Below, one piece after another: positions 6,553-56,391 of a stretch of 64,000 nucleotides of DNA. The number at the start of each line of letters is the position of its first letter. Position 1 is the first letter of the stretch. The notes under the pieces were generated by a model, which did no database searches, was not told the origin of the DNA, and worked only from the letters and a program-made list of their open reading frames with translations. The position numbers and the translations under genes are program-made. This DNA is from Lawsonibacter asaccharolyticus (lineage in GTDB: Bacteria; Bacillota; Clostridia; Oscillospirales; Oscillospiraceae), in contig BFBT01000001.1 of assembly GCA_003112755.1 (NCBI GenBank), positions 1,674,001-1,738,000 of the forward strand. The letters are read 5' to 3'.

Positions 6553-6824
6553 ATGTCTACCAAAAGTCTACCAAAAAAGGGCGGCGGTGGCCTGGAGTTT
6601 CAGGGCCTTGCTGCCCCTCCTGTTTTCATGTGTCTACCAAATGTCTACCAGGGAAACTTTTTAGGCGTAATCTCGGGGATTTTTCCCTTGATCTCCCCCT
6701 TTTTATAACCAATTCCTCCTGTGTCAGAAGTGTTGTACAGGCATAGTGGGCCGAAATGTTCTAGAAAAGGCCCGGTTTGTCAGAAAACAGCGACTTTTGT
6801 CAATATAAAAAGGAGGAATATCCA
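6553..6824 (+). promoter_or_regulatory. Conserved SLH leader, copy 1
   Basis: A 272-base leader shared with 24831-25102 and 50853-51124. Four TCTACCAAA-type direct repeats flank a GC-rich hairpin: two before it at 6556-6572, two after it in 6632-6650. The hairpin pairs GGGCGGCG at 6579-6586 with TGCTGCCC at 6609-6616, is preceded by A6 and followed by CTCCTGTTTT, and so has the form of a terminator that shields the gene from upstream transcription. A second small hairpin pairs GGGCC (6749) with GGCCC (6770). AAAAAGGAGGAATATCCA precedes the start. No convincing -35/-10 pair is visible. Confidence 0.65.
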
Positions 6825-9800
6825 ATGAGAAACCTGAAGCGTGCTCTCAGCCTGGCTCTGGCTTCCGTTATGCTCCTGGGCATGATGGTCGTGGGTTCCA
6901 GCGCTAAGGGTATCGACGATTTCACCGACAAGGCCGAGATCGTCAATCAGGATGCCGTGGCGGTCACCTCTGCCATCGGCATGTTCGAAGGCTACGAGGA
7001 CGGGTCCTTCGGCCCCGAGAACGTAGTCACCCGCGCCGAGATGGCGGTCATCATCTGCACCATGCTGTATGGCGCCGGTGTGAACGTCAACCAGTTCGCG
7101 GAGACCAATGTGTTCACCGACGTCCCCGCATGGGCGGAGGGCTATGTGAACCTGTGCTCCAGCCTGGGCATCGTGGCCGGCGTGGGCGAGGGCAAGTTTG
7201 ACCCCAACGCCACCGTGACCACCGCGCAGGCCGTGCTGATGCTGTGCCGCGCCCTGGGCTACTTCCAGAACGCCGCTGACTTCGGCGACAACTGGATGCT
7301 GGCCGCCACTGCCAAGGGCACCGCTCTGGGCCTGTACGGCGACCTGAAGCTTACCGCTGAGGCCGGGCTGACCCGCGACAACGTGGCTGAGCTGGTGTTC
7401 AACGCCCTGACCAAGGCTGTGCCCGTTCAGTACAATGAGCTGCTGGGCGTGTACTACAACGAGAACAAGGGTATCCTGTACTCCCTGACCTACTACTACA
7501 CCGATACCCTGGGCTACAAGAACTTCGACCTGGTCTACAAGACCAACGAGAACACCGATTACGGCCGTCCCGGCACCACCTGGGGCATCGGCTCCTATCG
7601 GATGGACGGTTCTCCCTCCGGCGAGGGCAACAAGGAAGGCGTGCTGAATGAGGACGGCTCCCTGATCCCCGAGCGGGTGAAGATGACCTCCGACGATGAG
7701 ATCATCACCGTGGCCGACACCCCCGACTTCACCTACACCGCCAACACCAAGGAGAACGTGATCTACAAGGCCGTTGGCAAGAGCGTGGTGGATGACTACG
7801 CCTGGAACATCTATGTGGACGGCGCTGAGCAGGCCGGCGACGATCTGGCTCCCGCCAACGACAAGGACACCGACTACACCTACACCGCCAAGGGCGCTAC
7901 CACCGAGATCTATGTGGATGATGTGAACGAGACCGTCACCGTGGTCATGATCAACTACTACATGGCCGAGGTCACCAAGGTCAAGGACGGCGAGAACACG
8001 GTCCGTGTGCTCAGCAACGCCACCAAGACCAGCCCCATCGACGAGCGGACCATCGCCGCCAACGGCTTCGCCGTGGATGAGTATGTGGTCATCACCGTGG
8101 ACGTGGACGATGATGGCGACTCCTTCGTGGCCTCCATCGATGCTCCTGCCACCGCCGAGGGCTCTGTGTCCTACGTCAGCAAGCTGTCCGAGGCCGAGGG
8201 CAACAAGGATGGTCAGTATGCCAAGCTGGATGACGGCAACAAGTACACCTACTCCAAGTACACCGCCTCCGACCTGGATGACATCAACATGGAGCACCCC
8301 ACTCTGGACGTGAACTACCGCCTGTACCTGGATCCCAACGGCTATGTGCTGGGCTTCCTGGCTCTGGACAACTACTATGAGAATTACCTCTACGTGGAGT
8401 CCGCTGCCAGCTACCTGAACTCCATCGACGCCAAGGTGATCTTCACTGACGGCACCGAGAAGCAGGTCAAGATCGACGACGAGTACATTGATGGCACCAA
8501 GATTTCCAACGAAATTGGTATGGCGAATGTTGGAAACGCCTATGACGATAGTAGCAATCCCGGCCTGGTTGGCCGTGCCTACGCTTACACTGAGAGCGAC
8601 GGCGTCTACACCCTGCGTCCTGTGTGGCCCAGCATGATCGACACTGGCCGCCCCGGCACCGGCACTCTCGCTAAGGACTACTACAAGAATTACCGCGATG
8701 TGTCTGTTGACGTGACTGTGAACTATGCCGCTGGCACCGCCGGCGAGACTGCGGCTCAGGTGAACGCGAAGAACACCGTCATCAAGAGCGGCGCCGCTTA
8801 CATCACCGCCAATGGCACGACCTACATTGTGGACAAGGACACCAAGTTCGTGGACGTGGATGAGAATCAGGTCTACACCGGCTTTGAGAACGTTCCCGAC
8901 TACATCGCTGACAGCACTGTTGACGGCGGAAAGGTGAGCTTCTGGGCCATCGATACCCGGTCCACCGACGGCGTTGCTGAGGTCATCTTCATCTATGAGG
9001 GCGAGGCCAGCAACAGCAACGACGTTTACTTCTACTCCGCTACTGGCTCCTTCGAGACCCACAGCCGCAATGAGAACTACAAGACCCATGATGTCTATGT
9101 GGACGGCGAGAAGCAGACCATGAACTTCACCCCCGCCGGTCATAAGGATCAGAACGGCGACGAGGTGGGGCTGGGCCTGTACCGCGTGAACAAGACCGAC
9201 GGCAAGGGCTTTGTGACTGATATCACCAAGATCACCAGCTTTGAAAATGTAGTCTCTGTGGGCGGCAACTCCTTCTCCCTGGGCACTTCCGCTCCCAAGC
9301 AGTACATCACCGACAAGGATACCGTGATCGTTGTGGCCACCTATGACCGCAAGGACAACGGCAGCCTGAAGGACCCCGTGGTCTCTCTGGGCTCCCTGAA
9401 GGATATGAATGTGGCCAAGGATAAGAATGGCAACATCATCGATGACTACAACACCGTGGTCTATGTGGCCAACACCTCCGACAGCGGCCGCATTGCCGAT
9501 CTGGTCTACATTGTGAAGACGGAGAAGGCTGTCTATGACAATACCGTCACCTTCACGAACTATGCCGGCGGCACCTACACTCTGGCCGTCCAGAGCACCA
9601 ACGCTCAGGATAACGGCGACGGCACCGTGGGCATCAATGACAACCAGACACTGAAGTTCAAGATCACCCCCAAGACTGTGGGCACCACCACCTATGAGCT
9701 GGTCTCCGTCAAGCTGGGCGACGAGGTCCTGACCGCTGACACCAACGACGTGTACTCCGTCAAGGTGGGCACCAAGGATCTGACCATCGACGTGACCACC

Positions 9801-10991
9801 AAGGCTCAGGTCGTGGGCAAGGGCGATGTCTCCATGGACCCCGCCGGCAACATCACCGTGACCTGGAAGAATGGCGATACCAACAAGCCCGGTCCCGACG
9901 AGGCCGTTGAGAACGTCAAGACATTCCTGAAGGCCGCTGGCTGGAAGGGCGACATCACTGTCACCAAGCAGGGCGTCAACTATGTCTTTACCGGCAAGGA
10001 CAGCTACGGCTGGGACGCTCAGGCCACCTGGGATACCGCTAACAACTTCTATGAGGTCATCGCTGTGTCCGTCAACGGTACCGGCGTGGAGGTGAAGAAA
10101 GGCTCCAACGTTACCGCTGCCTTCACCGCCCTCGGGCTGACTGCCGCCGGCAACATCGTGAACGCCGCTACCAAAGCCAAGGTACTCGGCACCGATGTTG
10201 CGGACGACGGGACTGCCTATGCCGACAAGTACATCGCCCTGACCGTGAGTACTGAGACCACCTACGGTCTGGCCGATGACAAGGTCGGTGCTGACAAATT
10301 CGGCTCCGGCGCCGGCAACTACTACAATGTTGGGGGAGCCGTCTACAAGGCCCTGGCCGACGTGACCTACGGGGACCTGGACAGCGACACCGACTACAAT
10401 GCCACCGTCGTCGATGGCAACAAGGGGTACTACAAGCTGACCGAGAACGGCCAGGCCGACAAGTACCTGAAGGCAAACGCTGATGCCCTCACTGGCCTGA
10501 CTGCCAGCACGAAGGTTCTGCTGAAGAACGACGCCACTGGCGCGGTGACCGCCGTGGACGTGTCCAGCAACAAGATTACCATGCCCGCCTACGACGCCAC
10601 CGTGCGGCTGAAGGATGCCTATCAGCTGACTGCTCTGGACCTGTCCACTCCCCAGCTGGGTTCTGACGTGGAGCAGACCTGGTCTGAGAACGTGGTGAAG
10701 GCTGACGACGGCAAGTACTACGCCGCGGCCGGCGCTGTCACCGTGACTCTGAGCAACGTGTCCATCAAGCAGACTGGCGTCAACCTTATCCTGACTGTGG
10801 GCGGCACCGGCGCGAGCCTGAAGGGCTGCGATCTAGCTGCCACTGAGGTTGCCGGAAAGTATGCCGACGCCGTGCTGGGCACCGGTAAGATCACCGTGGA
10901 GGCCGACACGACCTACACTGGCACCATCACTCTGGGCCTGAACGTGGGCAGCTCTGCTACGGAAATCACCCTGACTTGGGGTAACAGCTGA
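6825..10991 (+). CDS. Secreted SLH-domain surface protein, copy 1
   Basis: A 1388-residue cell-surface protein. Signal peptide residues 1-27 (MRNLKRALSLALASVMLLGM, ending GSSA). Three SLH modules follow at about 33-84, 97-147 and 155-198 (FTDVPAWAEGYVNL; TRAEMAVIICTML), predicted to anchor the protein to pyruvylated secondary wall polymer. The rest is a beta-rich, Asp/Thr/Gly-rich extracellular region with no recognised enzyme domain; residues ~890-980 resemble a bacterial surface repeat fold. The start is ATG 6825 with AGGAGG eight bases upstream. Residues 1-325 are almost identical to copy 3 (51125) and residues 1-213 to copy 2 (25103); beyond that the copies diverge. Ligand unknown; S-layer or adhesin role is inferred. 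Confidence 0.88.
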   Translation: MRNLKRALSLALASVMLLGMMVVGSSAKGIDDFTDKAEIVNQDAVAVTSAIGMFEGYEDGSFGPENVVTRAEMAVIICTMLYGAGVNVNQFAETNVFTDVPAWAEGYVNLCSSLGIVAGVGEGKFDPNATVTTAQAVLMLCRALGYFQNAADFGDNWMLAATAKGTALGLYGDLKLTAEAGLTRDNVAELVFNALTKAVPVQYNELLGVYYNENKGILYSLTYYYTDTLGYKNFDLVYKTNENTDYGRPGTTWGIGSYRMDGSPSGEGNKEGVLNEDGSLIPERVKMTSDDEIITVADTPDFTYTANTKENVIYKAVGKSVVDDYAWNIYVDGAEQAGDDLAPANDKDTDYTYTAKGATTEIYVDDVNETVTVVMINYYMAEVTKVKDGENTVRVLSNATKTSPIDERTIAANGFAVDEYVVITVDVDDDGDSFVASIDAPATAEGSVSYVSKLSEAEGNKDGQYAKLDDGNKYTYSKYTASDLDDINMEHPTLDVNYRLYLDPNGYVLGFLALDNYYENYLYVESAASYLNSIDAKVIFTDGTEKQVKIDDEYIDGTKISNEIGMANVGNAYDDSSNPGLVGRAYAYTESDGVYTLRPVWPSMIDTGRPGTGTLAKDYYKNYRDVSVDVTVNYAAGTAGETAAQVNAKNTVIKSGAAYITANGTTYIVDKDTKFVDVDENQVYTGFENVPDYIADSTVDGGKVSFWAIDTRSTDGVAEVIFIYEGEASNSNDVYFYSATGSFETHSRNENYKTHDVYVDGEKQTMNFTPAGHKDQNGDEVGLGLYRVNKTDGKGFVTDITKITSFENVVSVGGNSFSLGTSAPKQYITDKDTVIVVATYDRKDNGSLKDPVVSLGSLKDMNVAKDKNGNIIDDYNTVVYVANTSDSGRIADLVYIVKTEKAVYDNTVTFTNYAGGTYTLAVQSTNAQDNGDGTVGINDNQTLKFKITPKTVGTTTYELVSVKLGDEVLTADTNDVYSVKVGTKDLTIDVTTKAQVVGKGDVSMDPAGNITVTWKNGDTNKPGPDEAVENVKTFLKAAGWKGDITVTKQGVNYVFTGKDSYGWDAQATWDTANNFYEVIAVSVNGTGVEVKKGSNVTAAFTALGLTAAGNIVNAATKAKVLGTDVADDGTAYADKYIALTVSTETTYGLADDKVGADKFGSGAGNYYNVGGAVYKALADVTYGDLDSDTDYNATVVDGNKGYYKLTENGQADKYLKANADALTGLTASTKVLLKNDATGAVTAVDVSSNKITMPAYDATVRLKDAYQLTALDLSTPQLGSDVEQTWSENVVKADDGKYYAAAGAVTVTLSNVSIKQTGVNLILTVGGTGASLKGCDLAATEVAGKYADAVLGTGKITVEADTTYTGTITLGLNVGSSATEITLTWGNS

Positions 10992-11326: not shown

Positions 11327-11749
11327 TCACGAGCCGACTTCCAGGAAAGCTATGACCGTATAATTTTTCCCCAGCTCATTTCCAGATAAGGAATCGCTGT
11401 CAGCAAAACGGGACCAGGAAAGGGTGTTGCCCTCCCAGACGGCCGCGGGCATCCCTGAGGCACTGCCGCTTTGCCGCAAATAGAGAAACGGGACCCCCTG
11501 GACCCCGCACCACCAGGTGACTACGCCTCCCATTCCAATGACCAGCAAGGGCTTTTGAGGAAAAACAAGCGATTGCCCATCTCCTCCCGTTCCTGTGTAG
11601 GACATAAAATACATCCGACAGTTGCACTGCGCCAGCTGGTGGAGCGCCCCGTCGATCTTGGCGTTGTCGGAGTTGAAGTCCACCCGCTCCACCTTGTCCG
11701 CGGCCTCCCACTGGGAGAGCCCATAATACTGAGTCTGTCCGCTTACCAT
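11327..11749 (-). CDS. Phage tail-fibre-like protein, copy 1
   Basis: A 140-residue protein on the minus strand, convergent with SLH gene 1. The N-terminal ~35 residues (SGQTQYYGLSQWEAADKVER, then VDFNSDNAKIDGAL) are the adaptor motif seen at the start of many clostridial prophage tail-fibre proteins. The C-terminus (YFMSYTGTGGDGQSLVFPQK, later LSWSRFADSD and KNYTVIAFLE) resembles the beta-rich tip domain of such fibres. AGGAGGGA precedes ATG 11749. No other phage genes are nearby. Same N-terminus and upstream leader as the genes at 28557 and 54994, with a different C-terminus. Function unknown; secretion signal absent. Confidence 0.7.
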   Translation of the reverse strand: MVSGQTQYYGLSQWEAADKVERVDFNSDNAKIDGALHQLAQCNCRMYFMSYTGTGGDGQSLVFPQKPLLVIGMGGVVTWWCGVQGVPFLYLRQSGSASGMPAAVWEGNTLSWSRFADSDSLSGNELGKNYTVIAFLEVGS

Positions 11750-11772
11750 AAAAAATCCCTCCTGTCCTGACT

Positions 11773-11793
11773 GGGCCCGGCAGATCCGGACCC
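11773..11793 (-). promoter_or_regulatory. Leader hairpin of tail-fibre-like gene, copy 1
   Basis: GGGTCCGG/CCGGGCCC, 8 bp with one U-G pair and a 5-base loop, in the minus-strand leader. The same hairpin occurs at 28802-28822 and 55800-55820. Confidence 0.5.
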
Positions 11794-11959
11794 GCTCAAA
11801 ACCGGAGGGAAAAGCTGTTTTGTGAGACGTTTCAATACAAATTATGGAAGTGAAGCGGAACTGCGCCCATTTCTGCCCCGCCTGTGCGGAAGCCCCGGTA
11901 TTGAGAGAGGCGGCCCGATGGCGGCGCCGCGCCTCCTCCTTCTCTCTGCGGCTCCCATT

Positions 11960-12158
11960 TCACCCGTGCAGGGCGGACTCCTGTTCCATGGCGGTGAAGA
12001 AGGGGACGCCGAGATGGCTGTAAAAGGCCAGATAGATGATGATATCCCTGGGTGCGTGGATGTCACCGATCTCAGCGCCGATGTGCTTGATCACCGATCC
12101 GGATGTCCCAGCACTGGTTGGACAGACGCCCAATGCTTTTCGAGATGGTTTTTACCGA
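11960..12158 (-). pseudogene. Truncated copy of the Spo0A-C-like gene
   Basis: Matches the 3' half of the intact minus-strand gene at 55987-56391 almost base for base (IYLAFYSHLGVPFF and following to the stop). It carries an 11-base deletion near 12095-12105 that shifts the frame, and the homology ends abruptly at 12158, so the 5' half is missing. A dead remnant marking the right end of cassette 1. Confidence 0.75.
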
Positions 12159-24548: not shown

Positions 24549-24624
<76 letters not shown>

Positions 24625-24630
24625 AAATCT

Positions 24631-24717
24631 TGGTGCCGGAGACCGGGGTCGAACCGGCACGGGATCACTCCCACGGGATTTTAAGTCCCGGGCGTCTGCC
24701 AATTCCGCCACTCCGGC
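24631..24717 (-). tRNA. tRNA-Leu (TAA)
   Basis: Minus strand, GCCGGAGTGGCGGAATTGGC at the 5' end, anticodon loop CTTAAAA giving anticodon TAA, long class II variable arm, T arm GGTTCGACCCC, and encoded CCA. Six bases upstream of tRNA-fMet in the same transcript. Confidence 0.95.
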
Positions 24718-24830: not shown

Positions 24831-25102
24831 ATGTCTACCAAAAGTCTACCAAAAAAGGGCGGCAGGGGCCTGGAGTTTCAGGGCCTTGCCGTTCCTTCTG
24901 TTTTTGCGTGTCTACCAAATGTCTACCAGGGAAACTTTTTAGGCGTGATCTCAGGGATTTTTCCCTTGATCTTCCCCTTTTTATAACCAATTCCTCCTGT
25001 GTCAGAAGTGTTGTACAGGCATAGTGGGCTGAAATGTTCTGGAAAAGGCCCAGTTTGTCAGAAAACAGCGACTTTTGTCAATATAAAAAGGAGGAATATC
25101 CA
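24831..25102 (+). promoter_or_regulatory. Conserved SLH leader, copy 2
   Basis: Same structure as at 6553. The GC-rich hairpin here pairs GGGCGGCA (24857-24864) with TGCCGTTC (24887-24894); every difference from copies 1 and 3 keeps the pairing. It is followed by CTTCTGTTTTT and flanked by the four TCTACC repeats. The downstream GGGCT/GGCCC hairpin has a G-U pair. AAAAAGGAGG precedes the start. Confidence 0.65.
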
Positions 25103-28100
25103 ATGAGAAACCTGAAGCGTGCTCTCAGCCTGGCTCTGGCTTCCGTTATGCTCCTGGGCATGATGGTCGTGGGCTCCAGCGCTAAGGGTATCGACGATTT
25201 CACCGACAAGGCCGAGATCGTCAATCAGGATGCCGTGGCGGTCACCTCTGCCATCGGCATGTTCGAGGGCTACGAGGACGGGTCCTTCGGCCCCGAGAAC
25301 GTAGTCACCCGCGCCGAGATGGCGGTCATCATCTGCACCATGCTGTATGGCGCCGGTGTGAACGTCAACCAGTTCGCGGAGACCAGCGTGTTCACCGACG
25401 TCCCCGCCTGGGCGCAGGGCTATGTGAACCTGTGCTCCAGCCTGGGCATCGTGGCCGGCGTGGGCGACGGCAAGTTCGACCCCAACGCCACCGTGACCAC
25501 CGCGCAGGCTGTGCTGATGCTGTGCCGCGCCCTGGGCTACTTCCAGAGCGCCGCTGACTTCGGCAATGACTGGATGCTGGCCGCCACCGCCAAGGGCACC
25601 GCTCTGGGCCTGTATGGCGACCTGAAGCTCACCGCCAACGCCGGGCTGACCCGCGACAACGTGGCTGAGCTGGTGTTCAACGCCCTGACCAAGGCCGTGC
25701 CTGTTCAGTACAACGAGCTGCTGGGTGTGTACTACAACGAGAACCAGGGCATCATCTACTCCCTGGAGTTCAACTACCTGCAGACCCTGGGCTACAAGAA
25801 CTTCGACCTGGTGTACCGCACCGACACCGAGACCATCTATGGCCGTCCCGGCACTACCTGGGGCACTGGCTCCTACAACGTGCCCACCAACGCCGGCACC
25901 ACTCAGAAGGACGAGTATCTGACTGAGAACGGCGGCCTGATCGCCGACAAGGTCCGGATGCTGGATAAGAACGAAATCATCACTGTCCCTAACACTCCCG
26001 ACTATGTCTATACCGCCAACACCAAGGAAGAGGCCGTGTACGACGATCTGGGCTCTACCGTCTGCAACGACACCAAGGGCGACGACAAGTACACCTGGAC
26101 TGCCTTCATCAACGGTGAGGAGCAGGATGAAGCTGTCATTCCTACTGAGAACGAGGACGACAAGTGGGTCTACACCGATAAGGGCGCTGTCGTGGAGGTG
26201 TACATCGATGACTACACCCTGGACGTGACCGTGGTGGAGATCAACTACTACCTGGGCGAGGTCTCCAAGGTGGACGGAGACGAGGGCACCATCAATGTCC
26301 GTGCTCTGTCTTCCGAGGCTAAGCTGGACGACCGCACCTTTGCTACCGCTGACTTCGAGGAGGACGACTATGTTGTCTTCACCGTGGACTACAACGACGA
26401 CGAGGACTTCTACATCTGCGAGCTGATGGCCCCCGAGACTGTCAGCGGTGAGGTCACCCGCGTGGATAAAGACGCTGAATCCAACAGCGCCAACAACGAC
26501 AACGACGACAGCTATGTCCGCATCGACGGCAACAAATACTCCTACGCCAGCAAGAACCACAACGTCTATGATCTGGACGAGGGAAAGAATGTTCACCCCG
26601 TTCTGAACGAGAACTACACTCTGTACCTGACTCCAGAGGGATACATTCTGGGTTATGCTCTGGCTGACCAGTCCCCCGACCAGTACCTGTACGTGGAGGA
26701 CTCCGACGAGGAGCTGGGCGACTGGGTCGCTAAGGTGGTCCTGGAGGACGGCACCTCCTCCAAGGTGGAGCTGAAGAACGACTACGTCAAGTCTGATAAT
26801 GGTGACTACGACATCAAGTGGGTGAAGGACGACGGTACCGACTACGGTCCCAGCGACCAGATCCAGAAGGTCCGCACCAACATCGACAAGCATGTCTTCG
26901 CCTACACCGTCAATGACGCCGGCCTGTACACCCTCACCGAGGCCGATCATCTCTGCTATGACACCGTGGATACTCAGACTACCGTGACCGGTGTCCAGAT
27001 CCACAACGGCAAGGCCTACATCGAGACCGGTGCCAACAGCATCATCGTGGACCGGGATACCATCTTCGTGGACGTAGACAACAACGTGGCTTACACCGGC
27101 TATGATGAGGTCCCCAACGTGGATGACGCCGACATCGCCTATGTCAAGGACGGCCGCACCGCCGAGGTGGTCTTCATCGTCAATGGCGAGATCTACGACG
27201 AGAACAGCACCTACTTCATGCTCACCGATAAGACCCGTGAGTCCCTGAACAAGGACGAGGACTTCTGGGAGTACAGCAAGGCCTATGTGAACGGCCAGAA
27301 GCAGACCATCACCGTGGCCTATGACGCGGTCCAGATGTGGGATGCTGCCAAGGGCGAGTGGGTCAAGGATACCAGCAAGGTGAACAAGGTCCTGGAGGTC
27401 GGCGTGCTGTACAAGGCAGTCAAGAGCAACGACGACGGCTACTTCACCGCCATCCGGCCCGTGGAGCTGGACAACGAGTTTGTGACCGAGGTCGCCCATG
27501 ACGCCTTCTGGATCACCGACAATCACAACTACGCCGAGGACAAACAGGTCAAGTACGACACCGACGGCGAGACCATCTTTGTCGTGGTGGAGCAGACCTA
27601 TAAGAAGAACGGCGATGAGGATAAGCTGGTCATCGACGACGGCGACATCAACGACATGTTTGAGGGTGTGGACGACGACGGCATGATCTCCTATGTCTCT
27701 GTCATCGAGGAGGATGAGGAGTACGCCGAGCTGGTCTACATCTGGCTGGAGAAGGCCCCTGTCCTCTCTGATGACGCTTCTGTGAAGTCCATTGAGTTCA
27801 AGGGTATTGAAGTGAACTCTGACGGCTATGAGGACGGCGAAACCTATTCTCTGGAGATTCCTTACGGAAAGAATATCAGAAACGATGAGTTTAAAGCTGC
27901 CATTACAGTTGCTGATTATGCCGATGTCGAGGTATTCTGGGGCGACGGCACAACCGACGTCTATGCCGGTGATATGGACAGTAGCACGGATGCTATCTCC
28001 GGCCTGCCTGCAACCTTGACCATCGTGTGCACTTCTCAGGATGGCGAAAAGACCAGCACCGTGAAGGTCAACTTGAGCGAGGGCGCGGCTCCTGAAGCTG

Positions 28101-28504
28101 GTGAGAAGATCACTGGTGATGTGACTGTCATTAGGTCCGGCAATCCTGCGGATCTAGCCGCTGAGCCCAGCGGTGCCTATGTGTTCGAGACCATTACGAC
28201 TCCTCCTGCTGCCGGGCTTAGTGGTAATGCTGATGAAAACATCTTCTTCAAGTTTACCACTACCCGCAACAATCAGTCTGTTAAAGTGGTGATTAAGGAC
28301 AACGAGGGCGAGACTTTGTGGACTGAGACTCTGAAGTTTACCGACGAGGGAGACCACTACTCCTATGTCCATATTCTAAACAGAGCCGATGACGACCATG
28401 ACCACAACCTGGGGATGGGCACTGGCCTCAAGACTGGTTCCTACTCCTGGTCCGTCACCTCTGGTGATGATGTGCTGGCCGCGGGTTCTTTCACTGTGGA
28501 ATGA
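25103..28504 (+). CDS. Secreted SLH-domain surface protein, copy 2
   Basis: A 1133-residue protein with the same 27-residue signal peptide and three SLH modules as copies 1 and 3 (residues 33-198). Identity ends at about residue 213; the remaining ~920 residues are very acidic (many Asp/Glu-rich stretches such as ENEDDKWVYTDKGA and NNDNDDSYVRIDGN) and beta-rich. The last 200 residues carry a bacterial surface beta-domain (KSIEFKGIEVNSDGYEDGET) and a second beta-sandwich. The codon usage of the final ~700 bases is less G/C-ending than the front, suggesting a separate origin. ATG 25103 follows AAAGGAGG. Surface display is inferred from SLH; ligand unknown. Confidence 0.88.
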   Translation: MRNLKRALSLALASVMLLGMMVVGSSAKGIDDFTDKAEIVNQDAVAVTSAIGMFEGYEDGSFGPENVVTRAEMAVIICTMLYGAGVNVNQFAETSVFTDVPAWAQGYVNLCSSLGIVAGVGDGKFDPNATVTTAQAVLMLCRALGYFQSAADFGNDWMLAATAKGTALGLYGDLKLTANAGLTRDNVAELVFNALTKAVPVQYNELLGVYYNENQGIIYSLEFNYLQTLGYKNFDLVYRTDTETIYGRPGTTWGTGSYNVPTNAGTTQKDEYLTENGGLIADKVRMLDKNEIITVPNTPDYVYTANTKEEAVYDDLGSTVCNDTKGDDKYTWTAFINGEEQDEAVIPTENEDDKWVYTDKGAVVEVYIDDYTLDVTVVEINYYLGEVSKVDGDEGTINVRALSSEAKLDDRTFATADFEEDDYVVFTVDYNDDEDFYICELMAPETVSGEVTRVDKDAESNSANNDNDDSYVRIDGNKYSYASKNHNVYDLDEGKNVHPVLNENYTLYLTPEGYILGYALADQSPDQYLYVEDSDEELGDWVAKVVLEDGTSSKVELKNDYVKSDNGDYDIKWVKDDGTDYGPSDQIQKVRTNIDKHVFAYTVNDAGLYTLTEADHLCYDTVDTQTTVTGVQIHNGKAYIETGANSIIVDRDTIFVDVDNNVAYTGYDEVPNVDDADIAYVKDGRTAEVVFIVNGEIYDENSTYFMLTDKTRESLNKDEDFWEYSKAYVNGQKQTITVAYDAVQMWDAAKGEWVKDTSKVNKVLEVGVLYKAVKSNDDGYFTAIRPVELDNEFVTEVAHDAFWITDNHNYAEDKQVKYDTDGETIFVVVEQTYKKNGDEDKLVIDDGDINDMFEGVDDDGMISYVSVIEEDEEYAELVYIWLEKAPVLSDDASVKSIEFKGIEVNSDGYEDGETYSLEIPYGKNIRNDEFKAAITVADYADVEVFWGDGTTDVYAGDMDSSTDAISGLPATLTIVCTSQDGEKTSTVKVNLSEGAAPEAGEKITGDVTVIRSGNPADLAAEPSGAYVFETITTPPAAGLSGNADENIFFKFTTTRNNQSVKVVIKDNEGETLWTETLKFTDEGDHYSYVHILNRADDDHDHNLGMGTGLKTGSYSWSVTSGDDVLAAGSFTVE

Positions 28505-28556: not shown

Positions 28557-28778
28557 TCACTTCCCCTCCAGCTTCTCCACCCGGGCAGACAGGGCGTTGA
28601 TGTCGGCGCGCAGCTTATCCAGCACCACATTGAGAACACTGGGGCTGACGATCAGATCTCGCATGGCTTTCAGCGCCCCGTCGATCTTTTGATTATCAGC
28701 GTTAAACTCCGTCTGGAGCACCTGATCCGCGGCCTCCCACTGGGAGAGCCCATAATACTGAGTCTGTCCGCTTGCCAT
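28557..28778 (-). CDS. Tail-fibre-like adaptor protein, copy 2 (short)
   Basis: A 73-residue protein. It begins like copies 1 and 3 (MASGQTQYYGLSQWEAADQV, then FNADNQKIDGALKAM) but ends in a short heptad-type coiled coil (LDKLRADINALSARVEKLEG) with no tip domain. AGGAGGGA precedes ATG 28778. It may be a minimal member, or one whose tip was lost. Confidence 0.65.
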   Translation of the reverse strand: MASGQTQYYGLSQWEAADQVLQTEFNADNQKIDGALKAMRDLIVSPSVLNVVLDKLRADINALSARVEKLEGK

Positions 28779-28801
28779 AAAAAATCCCTCCTGTCCTGAC
28801 T

Positions 28802-28822
28802 GGGCCCGGCAGATCCGGACCC
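28802..28822 (-). promoter_or_regulatory. Leader hairpin of tail-fibre-like gene, copy 2
   Basis: Same GGGTCCGG/CCGGGCCC stem as at 11773 and 55800, in the minus-strand leader of the 73-residue gene. Confidence 0.5.
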
Positions 28823-28917
28823 GCTCAAAACCGGAGGGAAAAGTTATTTTGTGAGACGTTTCAATACAAATTATGGAAGCAAAGCAAAACTGTGCTCATT
28901 TTGCCCCGCCTGTGCAG

Positions 28918-29330: not shown

Positions 29331-29368
29331 AAAAAGAAAGACACGACAAAAGTCGTGTCTTTCTTTTT
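29331..29368. terminator. Terminator after tRNA-Leu(CAG)
   Basis: A 17-bp perfect stem AAAAAGAAAGACACGAC with its complement, loop AAAA, directly at the 3' end of the tRNA on the minus strand. Confidence 0.9.
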
Positions 29369-29455
29369 GGTGCGCGAGGCGGGACTTGAACCCGCACGTG
29401 CGTAATGCACACTAGAACCTGAATCTAGCGAGTCTGCCAATTCCACCACTCGCGC
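29368..29455 (-). tRNA. tRNA-Leu (CAG)
   Basis: Minus strand, GCGCGAGTGGTGGAATTGGC at the 5' end, anticodon loop TTCAGGT giving CAG, class II variable arm, T arm GGTTCAAGTCC, encoded CCA. Confidence 0.95.
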
Positions 29456-50781: not shown

Positions 50782-50852
50782 GGTCCCTTGCAAATGAAAA
50801 ACAGCATATTATAATTGTAAGAGATCCAATCATATTCTTGACAAAAAGCGCG

Positions 50853-51124
50853 ATGTCTACCAAAAGTCTACCAAAAAAGGGCGGCGGGAGCCTGGAGTTT
50901 CAGGGCCTCGCCGCCCCTTCTGTTTTCATGTGTCTACCAAATGTCTACCAGGGAAACTTTTTAGGCGTGATCTCAGGGATTTTTCCCTTGATCTTCCCCT
51001 TTTTATAACCAATTCCTCCTGTGTCAGAAGTGTTGTACAGGCATAGTGGGCCGAAATGTTCTAGAAAAGGCCCGGTTTGTCAGAAAACAGCGACTTTTGC
51101 CAATATAAAAAGGAGGAATATCCA
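50853..51124 (+). promoter_or_regulatory. Conserved SLH leader, copy 3
   Basis: As at 6553 and 24831. The hairpin pairs GGGCGGCG (50879-50886) with CGCCGCCC (50909-50916), the most GC-paired version, followed by CTTCTGTTTT, with TCTACC repeats on both sides. AAAAAGGAGG precedes the start. Confidence 0.65.
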
Positions 51125-54100
51125 ATGAGAAACCTGAAGCGTGCTCTCAGCCTGGCTCTGGCTTCCGTTATGCTCCTGGGCATGATGGTCGTGGGCTCCA
51201 GCGCTAAGGGTATCGACGATTTCACCGACAAGGCCGAGATCGTCAATCAGGATGCCGTGGCGGTCACCTCTGCCATCGGCATGTTCGAGGGCTACGAGGA
51301 CGGGTCCTTCGGCCCCGAGAACGTAGTCACCCGCGCCGAGATGGCGGTCATCATCTGCACCATGCTGTATGGTGCCGGTGTGAACGTCAACCAGTTCGCG
51401 GAGACCAATGTGTTCACCGATGTCCCCGCCTGGGCGGAGGGCTATGTGAACCTGTGCTCCAGCCTGGGCATCGTGGCCGGCGTGGGCGAGGGCAAGTTTG
51501 ACCCCAACGCCACCGTGACCACCGCGCAGGCCGTGCTGATGCTGTGCCGCGCCCTGGGCTACTTCCAGAACGCCGCTGACTTCGGCGACAACTGGATGCT
51601 GGCCGCCACTGCCAAGGGCACCGCTCTGGGCCTGTACGGCGACCTGAAGCTGGCCGCCAACGAGGGTCTGACCCGCGACAACGTGGCTGAGCTGGTGTTC
51701 AACGCCCTGACCAAGGCTGTGCCCGTTCAGTACAATGAGCTGCTGGGCGTGTACTACAACGAGAACAAGGGTATCCTGTACTCCCTGACCTACTACTACA
51801 CCGATACCCTGGGCTACAAGAACTTCGACCTGGTCTACAAGACCAACGAGAACACCGATTACGGCCGTCCCGGCACCACCTGGGGCATCGGCTCCTATCG
51901 GATGGACGGCAACCCCTCCGGCGAGGGCAACAAGGAAGGCGTTCTGAATGAGGACGGCTCCCTGATCCCCGAGCGGGTGAAGATGACCTCCGATGATGAG
52001 ATCATCACCGTGGCCGACACCCCCGACTTCACCTACACCGCCAACACCAAGGAGAACGTGATCTACAAGGCCGTTGGCAAGAGCGTGGTGGACGATTACA
52101 CCTGGAATGTCTATGTAGACGGCGATGAGCAGGCTGATCCTGCGATCCCTGACAACGACAAGGACACCGACTACGCCTACACTGCCAAGGGCGCTACCAC
52201 CGAGATCTATGTGGACGACGTGAACGACACCGTCACCGTGGTCATGATCAACCACTACATGGCCGAGGTCACCAAGGTCAAGGACGGCGAAAACACCGTC
52301 CGCGTGCTCAGCAACAAGACCATGACCAACCCCATCGACGAGCGCACCATCATCGCTGACGGCTTTGCCAAGGGCGACTATGTGGTGGTCACCGTGGACG
52401 TGAACGACGATGATGACTCCTTCATCGCCTCCATCGCTGATCCCGAGGCTGTCGAGGGCACCGTGACCCGCGTCAGCAAGGACTCCGACCCCGAGGGCAA
52501 CCAGGGCAGCTATGTGAAGATGGACGATGGCAGCAAGCACACCTATTCCAAGTACACCGCGTCCGACCTGGACGACATCAATGAGGAGCATCCCACTCTG
52601 GACATCTCCTACCGTCTGTATCTGGACCCCAACGGCTATGTGATCGGCTTTAAGGCTCTGGAGGGTTACTACGACAACTATCTGTATGTGCAGGATGCTG
52701 ACGTGTCCCTGAGCACCATCACCGCCAAGGTGGTCTTCACCGACGGCACCGCCAAGACCGTGGAGATCGACGACGAGTATGTCGCTCTGAGCTCCAGCAA
52801 CACCAAGTTCGACACCGATAACGATGGCAAGATCCAGGGTGCCGAGATCACCGCCGCTGTCACCCTGCTGGCCGGCAACGTCTTTGCCTACACTGAGGAC
52901 AACGGCGTCTACACCCTGCGTCAGATCGTGAATATGAACACTACCCGTCCCAGTACCAACCGCTACAAGGACACCCAGGACAAGGCTGAGGATACTGGCG
53001 CCGGGACTGTGACCATCAACAACGACGCCGCCTACATCAAGGCGAACGGCACCTCCTACATCGTGGACGAGCAGACTGCCTTTGTGGATGTGGACGAGAA
53101 GACTCTCTACACTGGCTTCGAGAACGTGCCTGACTACCGCAACGGCACCGGCACCGACTATGTGAAGTTCTGGGCCATCGACAGCACCGATGACGGCGTT
53201 CTGGACGCTGTGTTCATCTATGGCGGCGTGGCCTCCAACAGCAACAAGACCTACTTCTATGTGAAGGATGCCGGCGACTTCGAGACCTACGACAAGAACA
53301 AGACCTACAAGGAGCACAACGTCTACGTGGACGGCGAGCCCACTGCCATGGTCTTCACCCAGAGCGCCCACAACAGCGTCAACGCCAAGGGTGTCTACTG
53401 CGTTGAGACCACCAACGGCGACGGCATCGTCACCTCCGTGACCTACATCGGCACCAACACCAATGGCGTCCAGCAGGCTTACACCAACGATGATGTCAAC
53501 AATGACTTCTACACCGTGAAGGCCGTTGGCTCCCGCAGCTTCTCCCTGAACGACGCCAACCAGGAGCAGCTGACTGTGAACAACGAGACCGTCTATGTTC
53601 TGGCCACCTATGACCTGAAGGACAACAAGAGCACCTATAAGGCTCCCTCTGTGGGCGACGGTTCTCTGGATGACCTGAAGGAGGATGTGAAGAACGACGG
53701 CGACTACTTCACCTATGTCTATGTCGCCAAGACTTCCAACGATGGCAAGACCGCTGACCTGATCTTCATCGAGCAGTGGGAGAAGAAGCCCACCGTTTAC
53801 TCCACTGTGAACTTCGACAACAGCATCCGGACTGTAGTCGACGGCAACAATGACCCTGTCGCCAACGGCGACAAGGTGGCCAACGGCACTGTTCTGACCA
53901 TCACTCCCAATGTTGCCGCTGGTCAGAACGAGGCACTTGTGGTCGAGGCCAACGGCACTGCCGTGACTCCCGACGGCACCGGCGCCTATAAGTACACTGT
54001 GACTGGAAATACCGTTCTGTCTGCTAAGGTCGTTGCACAGAAGATCACTGTTGATCTGGTGATGAACCAGAAGGCCATTGTGGAGATCGACGGCGTGAAG

Positions 54101-54841
54101 TACACTTCTGACGCCAATATCGACCTGGCCGCTGGCGTCCATGACTTCAAAGTGACCTATGCTACTAACGTCCCTGCCTACCTCCAGGGTGAGACCGGCG
54201 ATGCCAAGGTCACTGTGGATGATTTCGGCGGCGGCACGAAGATGATCAATGTGACCGGTTCCGGCACTCTGACTGTCGGCGTGGAGTCCTTTGATCTGAC
54301 CCTGCCCGCTAATGTGACCGGTGCTTGGGATGCCCAGGCTGCTAATGCGAACGCCACTACTGCGGTTCCCAAGGATGCTGTGGTGACCATTACCTATGAG
54401 GCGGCGGACGATACCGCTACCGACTGGGCTTCCGCCACCATTGAGATCAACGGTGTGGCCGAGACTGCCACCATCGCTGCCCAGGGCAATGGCACTGGAA
54501 CCAAGGCTAAGGTGACCTATCAGCTGACCATGACTGAGGACACCACTGTCGGCGACGTGAAGGGAACTCAGAAAACCTACACTGTTACCAGTTCTGTTGC
54601 CGACTATGAGCTCAAAACTGATAAGGAGGAGTATGTGAAGGGTGAGACCGTTAAGGTAACCCTGACCAAGACTACCAACGGTGTAACCGCAAATACTACC
54701 GTTAACAGTGTGACTGCTACTCCTACCATCAGCATCTCCAATGGGAATGTTAAGGCTGGTACTGCGGACACTCCCGAAATTGTGACCTTTGACTTTACAA
54801 TTGCTGCAAATACCGAGCTGACTGCAATGGTCCTGGCCTAA
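51125..54841 (+). CDS. Secreted SLH-domain surface protein, copy 3
   Basis: A 1238-residue protein with the shared signal peptide and three SLH modules (residues 33-198). Residues 1-325 are nearly identical to copy 1 apart from a few changes (LAANEG for LTAEAG; DGNPSG for DGSPSG). Similarity then declines through the middle (for example IYVDDVNDTVTVVMIN against IYVDDVNETVTVVMIN) and disappears in the C-terminal ~400 residues, which here form Ala/Thr/Val-rich beta domains (DGNNDPVANGDKVANGTVLT). No enzyme motif. ATG 51125 follows AGGAGG. Predicted wall-anchored surface layer or adhesin. Confidence 0.88.
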   Translation: MRNLKRALSLALASVMLLGMMVVGSSAKGIDDFTDKAEIVNQDAVAVTSAIGMFEGYEDGSFGPENVVTRAEMAVIICTMLYGAGVNVNQFAETNVFTDVPAWAEGYVNLCSSLGIVAGVGEGKFDPNATVTTAQAVLMLCRALGYFQNAADFGDNWMLAATAKGTALGLYGDLKLAANEGLTRDNVAELVFNALTKAVPVQYNELLGVYYNENKGILYSLTYYYTDTLGYKNFDLVYKTNENTDYGRPGTTWGIGSYRMDGNPSGEGNKEGVLNEDGSLIPERVKMTSDDEIITVADTPDFTYTANTKENVIYKAVGKSVVDDYTWNVYVDGDEQADPAIPDNDKDTDYAYTAKGATTEIYVDDVNDTVTVVMINHYMAEVTKVKDGENTVRVLSNKTMTNPIDERTIIADGFAKGDYVVVTVDVNDDDDSFIASIADPEAVEGTVTRVSKDSDPEGNQGSYVKMDDGSKHTYSKYTASDLDDINEEHPTLDISYRLYLDPNGYVIGFKALEGYYDNYLYVQDADVSLSTITAKVVFTDGTAKTVEIDDEYVALSSSNTKFDTDNDGKIQGAEITAAVTLLAGNVFAYTEDNGVYTLRQIVNMNTTRPSTNRYKDTQDKAEDTGAGTVTINNDAAYIKANGTSYIVDEQTAFVDVDEKTLYTGFENVPDYRNGTGTDYVKFWAIDSTDDGVLDAVFIYGGVASNSNKTYFYVKDAGDFETYDKNKTYKEHNVYVDGEPTAMVFTQSAHNSVNAKGVYCVETTNGDGIVTSVTYIGTNTNGVQQAYTNDDVNNDFYTVKAVGSRSFSLNDANQEQLTVNNETVYVLATYDLKDNKSTYKAPSVGDGSLDDLKEDVKNDGDYFTYVYVAKTSNDGKTADLIFIEQWEKKPTVYSTVNFDNSIRTVVDGNNDPVANGDKVANGTVLTITPNVAAGQNEALVVEANGTAVTPDGTGAYKYTVTGNTVLSAKVVAQKITVDLVMNQKAIVEIDGVKYTSDANIDLAAGVHDFKVTYATNVPAYLQGETGDAKVTVDDFGGGTKMINVTGSGTLTVGVESFDLTLPANVTGAWDAQAANANATTAVPKDAVVTITYEAADDTATDWASATIEINGVAETATIAAQGNGTGTKAKVTYQLTMTEDTTVGDVKGTQKTYTVTSSVADYELKTDKEEYVKGETVKVTLTKTTNGVTANTTVNSVTATPTISISNGNVKAGTADTPEIVTFDFTIAANTELTAMVLA

Positions 54842-54868
54842 GGCGCTTTTAGCTCCTAAAGGCTGAGA

Positions 54869-54900
54869 TGATCCCCCCGGACTGACGTCCGGGGGGATCA
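54869..54900 (+). terminator. Terminator after SLH gene 3
   Basis: A perfect 14-bp stem TGATCCCCCCGGAC/GTCCGGGGGGATCA, loop TGAC, followed by CTGTTTATTTTTATG. Confidence 0.88.
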
Positions 54901-54993
54901 CTGTTTATTTTTATGATTCTTTTGATATCCCCCTGGGGTAATGAGAATATCAAAAGGAAAATGCGGCCCAGGAACATAGAACAAAATTGTGGG

Positions 54994-55776
54994 TCATCTT
55001 TTCAACCCATACAGGGCGAATTCCGAGCCTGGAGCGCAGAGAGTGCCGTCCTTTGGGACAAACTGGACGCTGGAGAGGCTCTCCCAGTCGACCCCCACCA
55101 GAGCCGCACTGTCTGAACCATTCATGACCGCCTTGGAACAGTACCAAACATGGCAGGGCAGACGGTCCGCGGCACCGGGGATAAAAAACCACTCCGCGAA
55201 TCCCGCGGCAAAAAGAGAGTTGGTAAAGGAGAGATACAGGCCGTCTGTCCTGTTGATCCCCCCTGTGTCATACTGGCCCGAACTGACCTGGTTCATCCGC
55301 AGGATAACATTACCCAGAGCTGAGACGCCGCAGATGTGGAAATGGAGCCGCAGCTGGCGGAAACGGCTTTTGTCGATCTCCGGGAAGCTCAAACTGATCA
55401 GACTGCTTTCCTCTGTCAGAGACCATTCCCCCAGCCTGACCCAGCAGTTTTCGCTCCGCAGGGCCGCCGTGTCTGCCTCGTGGGACTGGCTCAGGGCCCT
55501 GATCTGGGCGGCCAGCTCCGTCTTGTCAGCCTTTCCGCTCTCCAGGGCGGAGATGCGCCCCTCCGCCGCCGAGAGGGCGGTCTTGTCAGCCTTCTGCTCC
55601 ACCACGTTGGACAGGCTGTCCACTGCAGATCTGTCGGCCTTCTGGCCCGCCTGCTCCGCCAGGGCGCGGAGCGCCCCGTCCACCCTGGCGTTGTCGGAGT
55701 TGAAGTCCACTCGCTCCACCTTGTCCGCGGCCTCCCACTGGGAGAGCCCATAATACTGCGTCTGTCCGCTTGCCAT
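54994..55776 (-). CDS. Phage tail-fibre-like protein, copy 3 (long)
   Basis: A 260-residue protein with the full architecture. Adaptor (SGQTQYYGLSQWEAADKVER, residues ~1-35), a helical coiled-coil stalk at ~40-110 with repeats KADRSAVDSL, KADKTALSAA and KADKTELAAQ (the KADK heptads typical of trimeric fibre shafts), then a beta-rich head (LGEWSLTEESSLISLSFPEI; ending APGSEFALYGLKR) like receptor-binding tips of Firmicute phages. AGGAGGGA precedes ATG 55776. No capsid, tape-measure, holin or integrase genes nearby. Convergent with SLH gene 3. Biological role unknown. Confidence 0.72.
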   Translation of the reverse strand: MASGQTQYYGLSQWEAADKVERVDFNSDNARVDGALRALAEQAGQKADRSAVDSLSNVVEQKADKTALSAAEGRISALESGKADKTELAAQIRALSQSHEADTAALRSENCWVRLGEWSLTEESSLISLSFPEIDKSRFRQLRLHFHICGVSALGNVILRMNQVSSGQYDTGGINRTDGLYLSFTNSLFAAGFAEWFFIPGAADRLPCHVWYCSKAVMNGSDSAALVGVDWESLSSVQFVPKDGTLCAPGSEFALYGLKR

Positions 55777-55799
55777 AAAAATTCCCTCCTGTCCTGACT

Positions 55800-55820
55800 G
55801 GGCCCGGCAGATCCGGACCC
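55800..55820 (-). promoter_or_regulatory. Leader hairpin of tail-fibre-like gene, copy 3
   Basis: GGGTCCGG/CCGGGCCC stem, identical to those at 11773 and 28802. The surrounding leader up to the motif ATTTGTATTGAAACGTCTCA (55852-55871) is conserved in all three copies. Confidence 0.5.
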
Positions 55821-55986
55821 GCTCAAAACCGGAGGGAAAAGCTGTTTTGTGAGACGTTTCAATACAAATTATGGAAGTGAAGCGGAACTGCGCCCATTTC
55901 CGCCCCGCCTGTGCGGAAGCCCCGGTATTGAGAGAGGCGGCCCGATGGCGGCGCCGCGCCTCCTCCTTCTCTCTGCGGCTCCCATT

Positions 55987-56391
55987 TCACCCGTGCAGGG
56001 CGGACTCCTGTTCCATGGCGGTGAAGAAGGGGACGCCGAGATGGCTGTAAAAGGCCAGATAGATGATGATATCCCTGGGTGCGTGGATGTCGCTGATCTC
56101 AGCGCCGATGTACTTGCCCACCAATCCTCTGGCGACCAGGATGTCCCAGCACTGGTTGGACAGACGCTCAATGCTTTTCGAGATGGTTTTTACCGACTGC
56201 GGCTCCCCGTTTTTGCCACGGAGCAGCACAGCCACTGGAGAATAGATGTCCCGTGTGAAGTGGAGCTCATCGATGGTCTGTCTGTGGGTGAACAGCAGCT
56301 CTGCGGCAATGTCCACAGCACGGGCCAAGGGGCGGGTGTCGATCCCGGCGGCCCCGAAAATAGAGCGGATAACAGTTTCTGTTTTCGTCAT
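55987..56391 (-). CDS. Small protein resembling the Spo0A C-terminal DNA-binding domain
   Basis: A 134-residue, helix-rich protein. The order of segments resembles the Spo0A effector domain: an N-terminal helix (TVIRSIFGAAGIDTRPLARA), a helix pair, then TISKSIERLSNQCWDILV in place of the recognition-helix region (TASRVERAIRHAIEVAW in Bacillus), and a C-terminal helix (APRDIIIYLAFYSHLG). It lacks any receiver domain. The match is by eye and not certain. ATG 56391 has only a weak AGGATAGG site. It follows the tail-fibre-like gene leader; a frameshifted half copy exists at 11960-12158. Possible regulator of the cassette, by context only. Confidence 0.5.
   Translation of the reverse strand: MTKTETVIRSIFGAAGIDTRPLARAVDIAAELLFTHRQTIDELHFTRDIYSPVAVLLRGKNGEPQSVKTISKSIERLSNQCWDILVARGLVGKYIGAEISDIHAPRDIIIYLAFYSHLGVPFFTAMEQESALHG

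Follow-up and report, generated by a model that had tools for sequence, protein, structure and literature searches.

Why does a gut bacterium keep, at several places on its chromosome, a gene for a surface-layer (S-layer) protein that faces a gene for a protein resembling a phage tail fibre? The question is raised by a window of 64,000 nucleotides, the whole stretch of DNA analysed here, from Lawsonibacter asaccharolyticus (G000:C1:1674001-1738000; genome size 4.28 Mb). A first-pass annotation had described in it a convergent cassette of an SLH gene and a tail-fibre-like gene, with conserved outer arms and a variable interior, present three times. The cassette is real, with near-identical arms and diverging interiors, and three is the correct number for the window (units F, G and H), but the whole genome contains nine units.

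Nine units of one plan

A 260-aa query from the SLH N-terminus found nine matches genome-wide at 78-100% identity. These are the SLH genes of units A to I, at 833, 848, 893, 963, 978, 1681, 1699, 1725 and 1758 kb. The fibre-like gene, here called the adaptor, gave eight matches with a single sequence and again eight with a profile, each at an SLH unit, and neither search found a copy away from the units anywhere in the genome. A convergent adaptor is thus present at eight of the nine SLH genes; unit I (C1:1758 kb, L055) has the leader and the SLH gene without an adaptor.

Unit F opens with a left leader on the forward strand (6553-6821) that contains two copies of GTCTACCAAANGTCTACC (6555-6572 and 6632-6649). 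Its S-layer type SLH gene (6822-10991, forward strand, 1389 aa) has a conserved N-terminus and a variable C-terminus, and is met by a tail-fibre-like adaptor on the reverse strand (11327-11749, 140 aa) with a short beta tip, modelled at a mean pLDDT of 87.5, and by the right leader of the adaptor (11750-12158, reverse strand). Unit G repeats this order with a left leader (24831-25099, forward; paired repeat at 24833-24850 and 24910-24927), an SLH gene of 1134 aa (25100-28504, forward), an adaptor of only 73 aa (28557-28778, reverse) and a right leader (28779-28917, reverse). In unit H the left leader (50853-51121, forward; paired repeat at 50855-50872 and 50932-50949) precedes an SLH gene of 1239 aa (51122-54841, forward), which converges with a tail-fibre-like adaptor of 260 aa having a long coil and a beta-sandwich tip (54994-55776, reverse); the right leader (55777-56196, reverse) is taken up to the end of the homology with unit F. 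The conserved SLH start codon follows AAAAAGGAGG, at 6822, 25100 and 51122. Two tRNA genes, for Met and Leu, lie right before unit G (24549-24717), and another tRNA-Leu gene lies right behind it (29368-29455).

Unit H matches unit F at 91.5% over 50844-52779 and at 94.3% over 55654-56196, and its matches to unit G are at 82.9% (50853-52426) and 92.9% (55717-55914). The right end of unit H had been placed at 56391; we moved it, because the homology stops near 56196 and another ORF starts at 56391. This ORF of 134 aa (55987-56391, reverse strand), upstream of the unit H adaptor, had no match in Pfam, PHROGs or NCBIfam, and unit F retains only broken pieces of it. Across the genome, homology between units begins ~270-280 bases 5' of the SLH gene (only ~45 in unit D) and extends roughly 120-420 bases past the adaptor start.

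PF00395 was found above its cut-off in all three SLH genes of the window, in two stretches apiece, and with nine such genes in the genome the family belongs to the SLH-anchored class. When identity was plotted along the aligned units, as the first-pass annotation had proposed, the pairwise mean for the SLH proteins dropped from 96% at residues 1-200 to ~20% past position 900 (eight units without D, 28 pairs). Judging by their domains, the nine proteins may form the coat of the cell as an S-layer. The whole genome contains 91 SLH-domain matches, far above what the nine unit genes explain.

With at most one mismatch, the genome has 16 copies of GTCTACCAAANGTCTACC, all of them in pairs 77 bp apart, and these pairs precede eight of the nine unit SLH genes. 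Control searches of the whole genome returned no occurrence on the other strand and none of the reversed sequence. The paired direct repeat is also present in other genera, at a spacing of 86-88 bp. A GC-rich, perfect-looking stem-loop was read by eye between the paired repeats of locus L191 (G152). That GTCTACCAAANGTCTACC is the site of a regulator is a guess.

Pairing, fibre likeness and possible exchange of the interiors

The pairing of the two genes, on which the first-pass annotation depended, extends across genera. A convergent SLH gene lies within 1.1 kb of the adaptor in 26 of the 33 named-organism loci in which 4.5 kb or more past the adaptor could be read; these came from 79 named loci, drawn from the best 80 of 94 matches. 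The median gap between the two genes is 79 bp (37 loci with a readable partner). A 32-row profile of the adaptor N-terminus found adaptors in 47 of 150 genomes of the family, and a single sequence found them in 33. Since the adaptor pattern missed divergent adaptors, 25 loci were read by position: a convergent SLH gene was less than 800 bp away in nine and slightly farther in two, and an SLH neighbour was absent in the remaining 14, some of them cut by contig ends. Both this count and that of 26 in 33 were made with an SLH profile of ten rows, one of which (L004) was on the wrong strand. Many contigs end inside the partner SLH gene, the start of which is probably a repeat. The adaptors of G012, G023, G043, G055, G068, G074, G132 and G143 had no SLH neighbour within several kb. 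Where a genome has more than one adaptor, the units can stand in tandem (G128) or as mirror pairs (G118, G082, G071, G022 and G014).

The adaptor looks like a phage tail fibre. It has the same plan of a docking N-terminus, a coiled stalk and a variable beta tip, and thus the helical stalk and beta tip by which we recognised a fibre. Residues 1-40 have a mean identity of 77% (21 pairs from seven units, unit D omitted), and the tips within the genome are of several kinds. Two adaptors, those of units G and E, both of 73 aa, consist of the docking segment and coil and lack a tip. The best structural matches of the unit F model were viral tail fibres. In the phages Lietuvens and PVJ1, the adaptor N-terminus begins the gene behind the baseplate genes, and the docking motif was N-terminal in all five phage stretches that had been picked by that motif. 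Among six phage stretches picked by baseplate J alone, the motif was found in one, phage MRSA107, near the start of the post-baseplate gene (E 1.4e-6), and was absent from five.

The tips vary together with the interiors of the coat proteins beside them. Across 51 of 54 units, after removal of a duplicate genome and of two units under the length limits, similarity between tips was correlated with similarity between SLH interiors (r 0.46), a value reached in 0 of 4999 full permutations and 10 of 4999 within-genome permutations. The correlation of the tips with the SLH N-termini was r 0.15. We compared 1062 cross-genome pairs whose SLH N-termini were unlike: interior and tip were both alike in two, the interior only in one and the tip only in none.

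One of the cross-genus comparisons has the form of a block. Between G128 and G118, 2.9 kb match at 76% DNA identity, from about SLH residue 260 across the junction to about adaptor residue 61, against reference levels of 65-72% for module DNA (the module is described below) and 64-70% for recG. Protein identity is 35% (SLH) and 43% (adaptor) in the arms, and 73% and 68% in the respective interiors. In a second cross-genus pair the interior is at 60% and the arms at 37%, and tip and docking segment are equally alike, at 48% each. The proposal that the arms serve as homology blocks for the exchange of interiors gained from the behaviour of the G128/G118 block, but the pattern fits two histories: the interior may have been imported, or it may be old and the arms on either side made uniform within each genome. 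Within our genome, the SLH gene of unit C groups with those of A, E and G and its adaptor start with those of B, F and H, which suggests that the pair can be re-sorted. Among metagenome relatives, 95 of 528 pairs had N-termini at least 95% identical and tips below 40%, some of these proteins being assembly fragments or chimeras.

A single head-tail module on the same chromosome

Three contigs in a virus database carry the SLH-adaptor pair beside terminase and portal genes, and it was through them that a head-tail module was found in the genome of the window. This module is contractile, single in the genome, and lies outside the window, ~740 kb away (G000:C1:921229-934407). It contains the terminase large subunit, the portal, the major head protein, the tail sheath (PF17482/PF04984), a LysM hub, a gp44-like hub, baseplate J (Baseplate_J) and, by a weak Pfam match, a Gp48-like protein. 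It therefore has the contractile tail, head and packaging genes of a PBSX-like element, and is set apart from an R-type tailocin, a tail without head or packaging genes, by having both. Its gene order may resemble that of the xkd genes.

The contigs could also mean that the units are stray or spare fibres of ordinary prophages with S-layer cargo, left by repeated insertions, and the similar fibre starts of free phages agree with such an origin. We think this improbable, because the module type on those contigs is a single-copy element in bacterial genomes. Of the 150 family genomes, 57 have a single portal gene, split into two pieces in G099 and interrupted by an internal stop in four. Order-wide, a search of 295 genomes found one portal in each of 43, and 32 of these belong to other families. 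Portal distances follow recG distances (Mantel r 0.78, 29 genomes, 0 of 9999 permutations, slope 0.70); in six of 30 genomes recG and the portal are less than 20 kb apart. Reading of the genes recognised none for integration or replication, and no integrase was recognised by eye in the 60 kb round the module. Six genome pairs (dS 0.56-0.93) gave dN/dS values of 0.07-0.39 for terminase and portal. Single copy, distances that follow recG and purifying selection are the marks of a domesticated element, and such a fixed, vertically inherited head-tail cluster is one of the traits of a gene transfer agent (GTA). The module, with its terminase, portal and major head protein, would encode a domesticated PBSX- or GTA-like particle that may package and transfer DNA.

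The adaptor tracks this module. Among the 150 family genomes, 42 have both adaptor and portal, five the adaptor only, 15 the portal only and 88 neither (Fisher p 5e-19), so that the portal is present in 42 of 47 genomes with an adaptor and in 15 of 103 without. Counted by genus, the only level of kinship that was handled, the numbers are 34, 5, 11 and 56 (p 5e-13). When four weak adaptor matches were dropped, the portal was present in 39 of 43 adaptor genomes. The five genomes with an adaptor and no portal are G010 (a weak match), G025, G050, G132 (99% complete) and G140, and the adaptor is missing in 15 of the 57 portal genomes. In G150, G152 and G089 the SLH gene and the module stand back to back, and the paired repeat lies in the space that separates them; the arrangement is the same in G151, where no repeat was found. 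No regulatory motif common to the adaptor leaders and the module was found.

The tight pairing at 26 of 33 loci and the co-variation with the SLH interior are also what would be expected if the adaptor were a protein of the cell that aids or decorates its partner coat and has nothing to do with a particle. Of all the explanations considered we give this one the least credence. The adaptor has a polar docking segment at its N-terminus and no signal peptide visible to the eye, its start and tip resemble phage fibres, and it tracks the portal though an SLH neighbour is missing in several genomes.

The module itself appears to lack a fibre. In the genome of the window, no fibre gene stands behind its last baseplate gene, and the genes that follow read as ordinary host genes. 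Among 20 further stretches, 14 modules were readable past the last baseplate gene; in none of the 14 was the fibre pattern or an adaptor profile match found within the next 3.5 kb. G024 has an adaptor profile match 4.6 kb past its last baseplate gene, on the same strand. In several modules, small genes of other kinds follow the last baseplate gene, some of them holin-like by eye. At L237 (G064), the last baseplate gene is followed immediately by an ORF of 158 aa, which could encode another type of tip protein.

Proposed fibres in trans and their probable receptors

Because the fibre-like gene tracks a single head-tail module, its likely function shifts from that of a surface antigen to that of one half of a receptor-ligand pair of a particle. 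The idea that the fibre-like partner and the surface protein are diversified together agrees with the correlation between tips and interiors, and antigenic variation has become the less likely purpose. We lean modestly towards the view that a domesticated PBSX/GTA-like particle receives the adaptors in trans as its fibres, and that each fibre gene is linked to the gene of its probable S-layer receptor. The units would supply fibres in trans to one contractile, DNA-packaging, phage-like particle, and the producing cell would load onto it whichever fibre or fibres are expressed; each fibre would probably bind the S-layer protein encoded beside it. Because the variable ends of the two convergent genes adjoin, flanked by the conserved arms, coat and fibre can move as one block; recombination in the arms would then move a coat variant and its matching fibre together, and the particle would keep recognising cells with the same coat, that is, kin. 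We infer the assembly of fibres on the particle, the receptor role of the S-layer and the delivery of DNA to kin from the gene content and its distribution.

The same genes could serve a killer particle, a PBSX-type or tailocin-like weapon whose fibre binds the coats of competitors and whose linked S-layer protein is the coat that spares the producer. Linkage of a weapon's specificity to immunity is a common logic. Passages of PMC12946183 describe PBSX itself as packaging host DNA yet working as a tailocin without injection. We hold this explanation to be unlikely, as the head genes, needless for a pure killer, are retained under purifying selection. The co-variation of tip and coat does not discriminate, because it suits avoidance as well as binding. 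Pairing with the cell's own coat seems to suit delivery to kin and to suit killing less, though PBSX both packages DNA and kills.

The trans-encoded fibres that we favour can be compared with several known systems. Mu, P1 and R-type tailocins also combine a constant docking part with variable tips; their fibres vary by inversion or allele change within their own locus, which is not known to carry a receptor gene, and R-type tailocins differ further from our module, which retains head genes. The slpA cassette is an exchangeable S-layer variant at one locus and is not known to include a tail-fibre gene, and here there are nine loci and a fibre gene. PBSX of Bacillus subtilis, which our module may resemble, is contractile, DNA-packaging and chromosomally fixed in a Gram-positive host; it has its own fibre gene inside the cluster and, unlike our units, is not known to have an S-layer partner. 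The gene transfer agent of Rhodobacter capsulatus (RcGTA) is non-contractile, and its fibre is encoded apart from the main cluster, with no known linkage to receptor genes. SlpA of Clostridioides difficile is reported to be a general phage receptor (PMC10100898), PBSX is reported to package host fragments of ~13 kb, and the tail fibre of RcGTA is reported to bind the capsule as its cell-surface receptor (PMC10218006). Our module shares with RcGTA a domesticated chromosomal head-tail cluster and a fibre that would be encoded elsewhere and bind a surface receptor; it differs in that its fibres would form a family, each beside an S-layer gene, and its packaging and transfer of DNA are only predicted. 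FpGTA of Faecalibacterium, as far as passages of PMC12946183 go, has its head genes and its fibre or receptor-binding genes at two separate loci, the second also with baseplate and lysis genes, and is most likely podovirus-like. It is alike in being GTA-like, from gut Oscillospirales and split between loci, whereas the module here has a contractile sheath, and those passages mention no S-layer gene. Among the open-access papers listed by our literature searches, none, judged by its title and the opening of its abstract, describes an S-layer gene paired with a tail fibre in this way.

GTAs and PBSX-like particles need to recognise the right recipient. If our reading is true, linked pairs of a fibre and its probable receptor would be a direct mechanism for kin-restricted exchange of DNA (or for self-sparing killing), and would help to explain the large S-layer gene families in these gut bacteria. 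More tentatively, and with more doubt than belief, we suggest that the units supply the receptor side of a contractile GTA spread through the order Oscillospirales in the gut: a particle that delivers DNA, with its docking fibre and its receptor on the cell coat stored as two-gene cassettes that can be exchanged, so that coat type would decide which cells exchange DNA. GTA-like packaging has been reported in Oscillospiraceae, according to passages of PMC12946183, where a search of four genome bins, one of them of Onthomonas, gave a strong candidate operon in one, a Faecalibacterium bin. Such an agent may underlie that packaging, and the module offers a candidate gene cluster for it.
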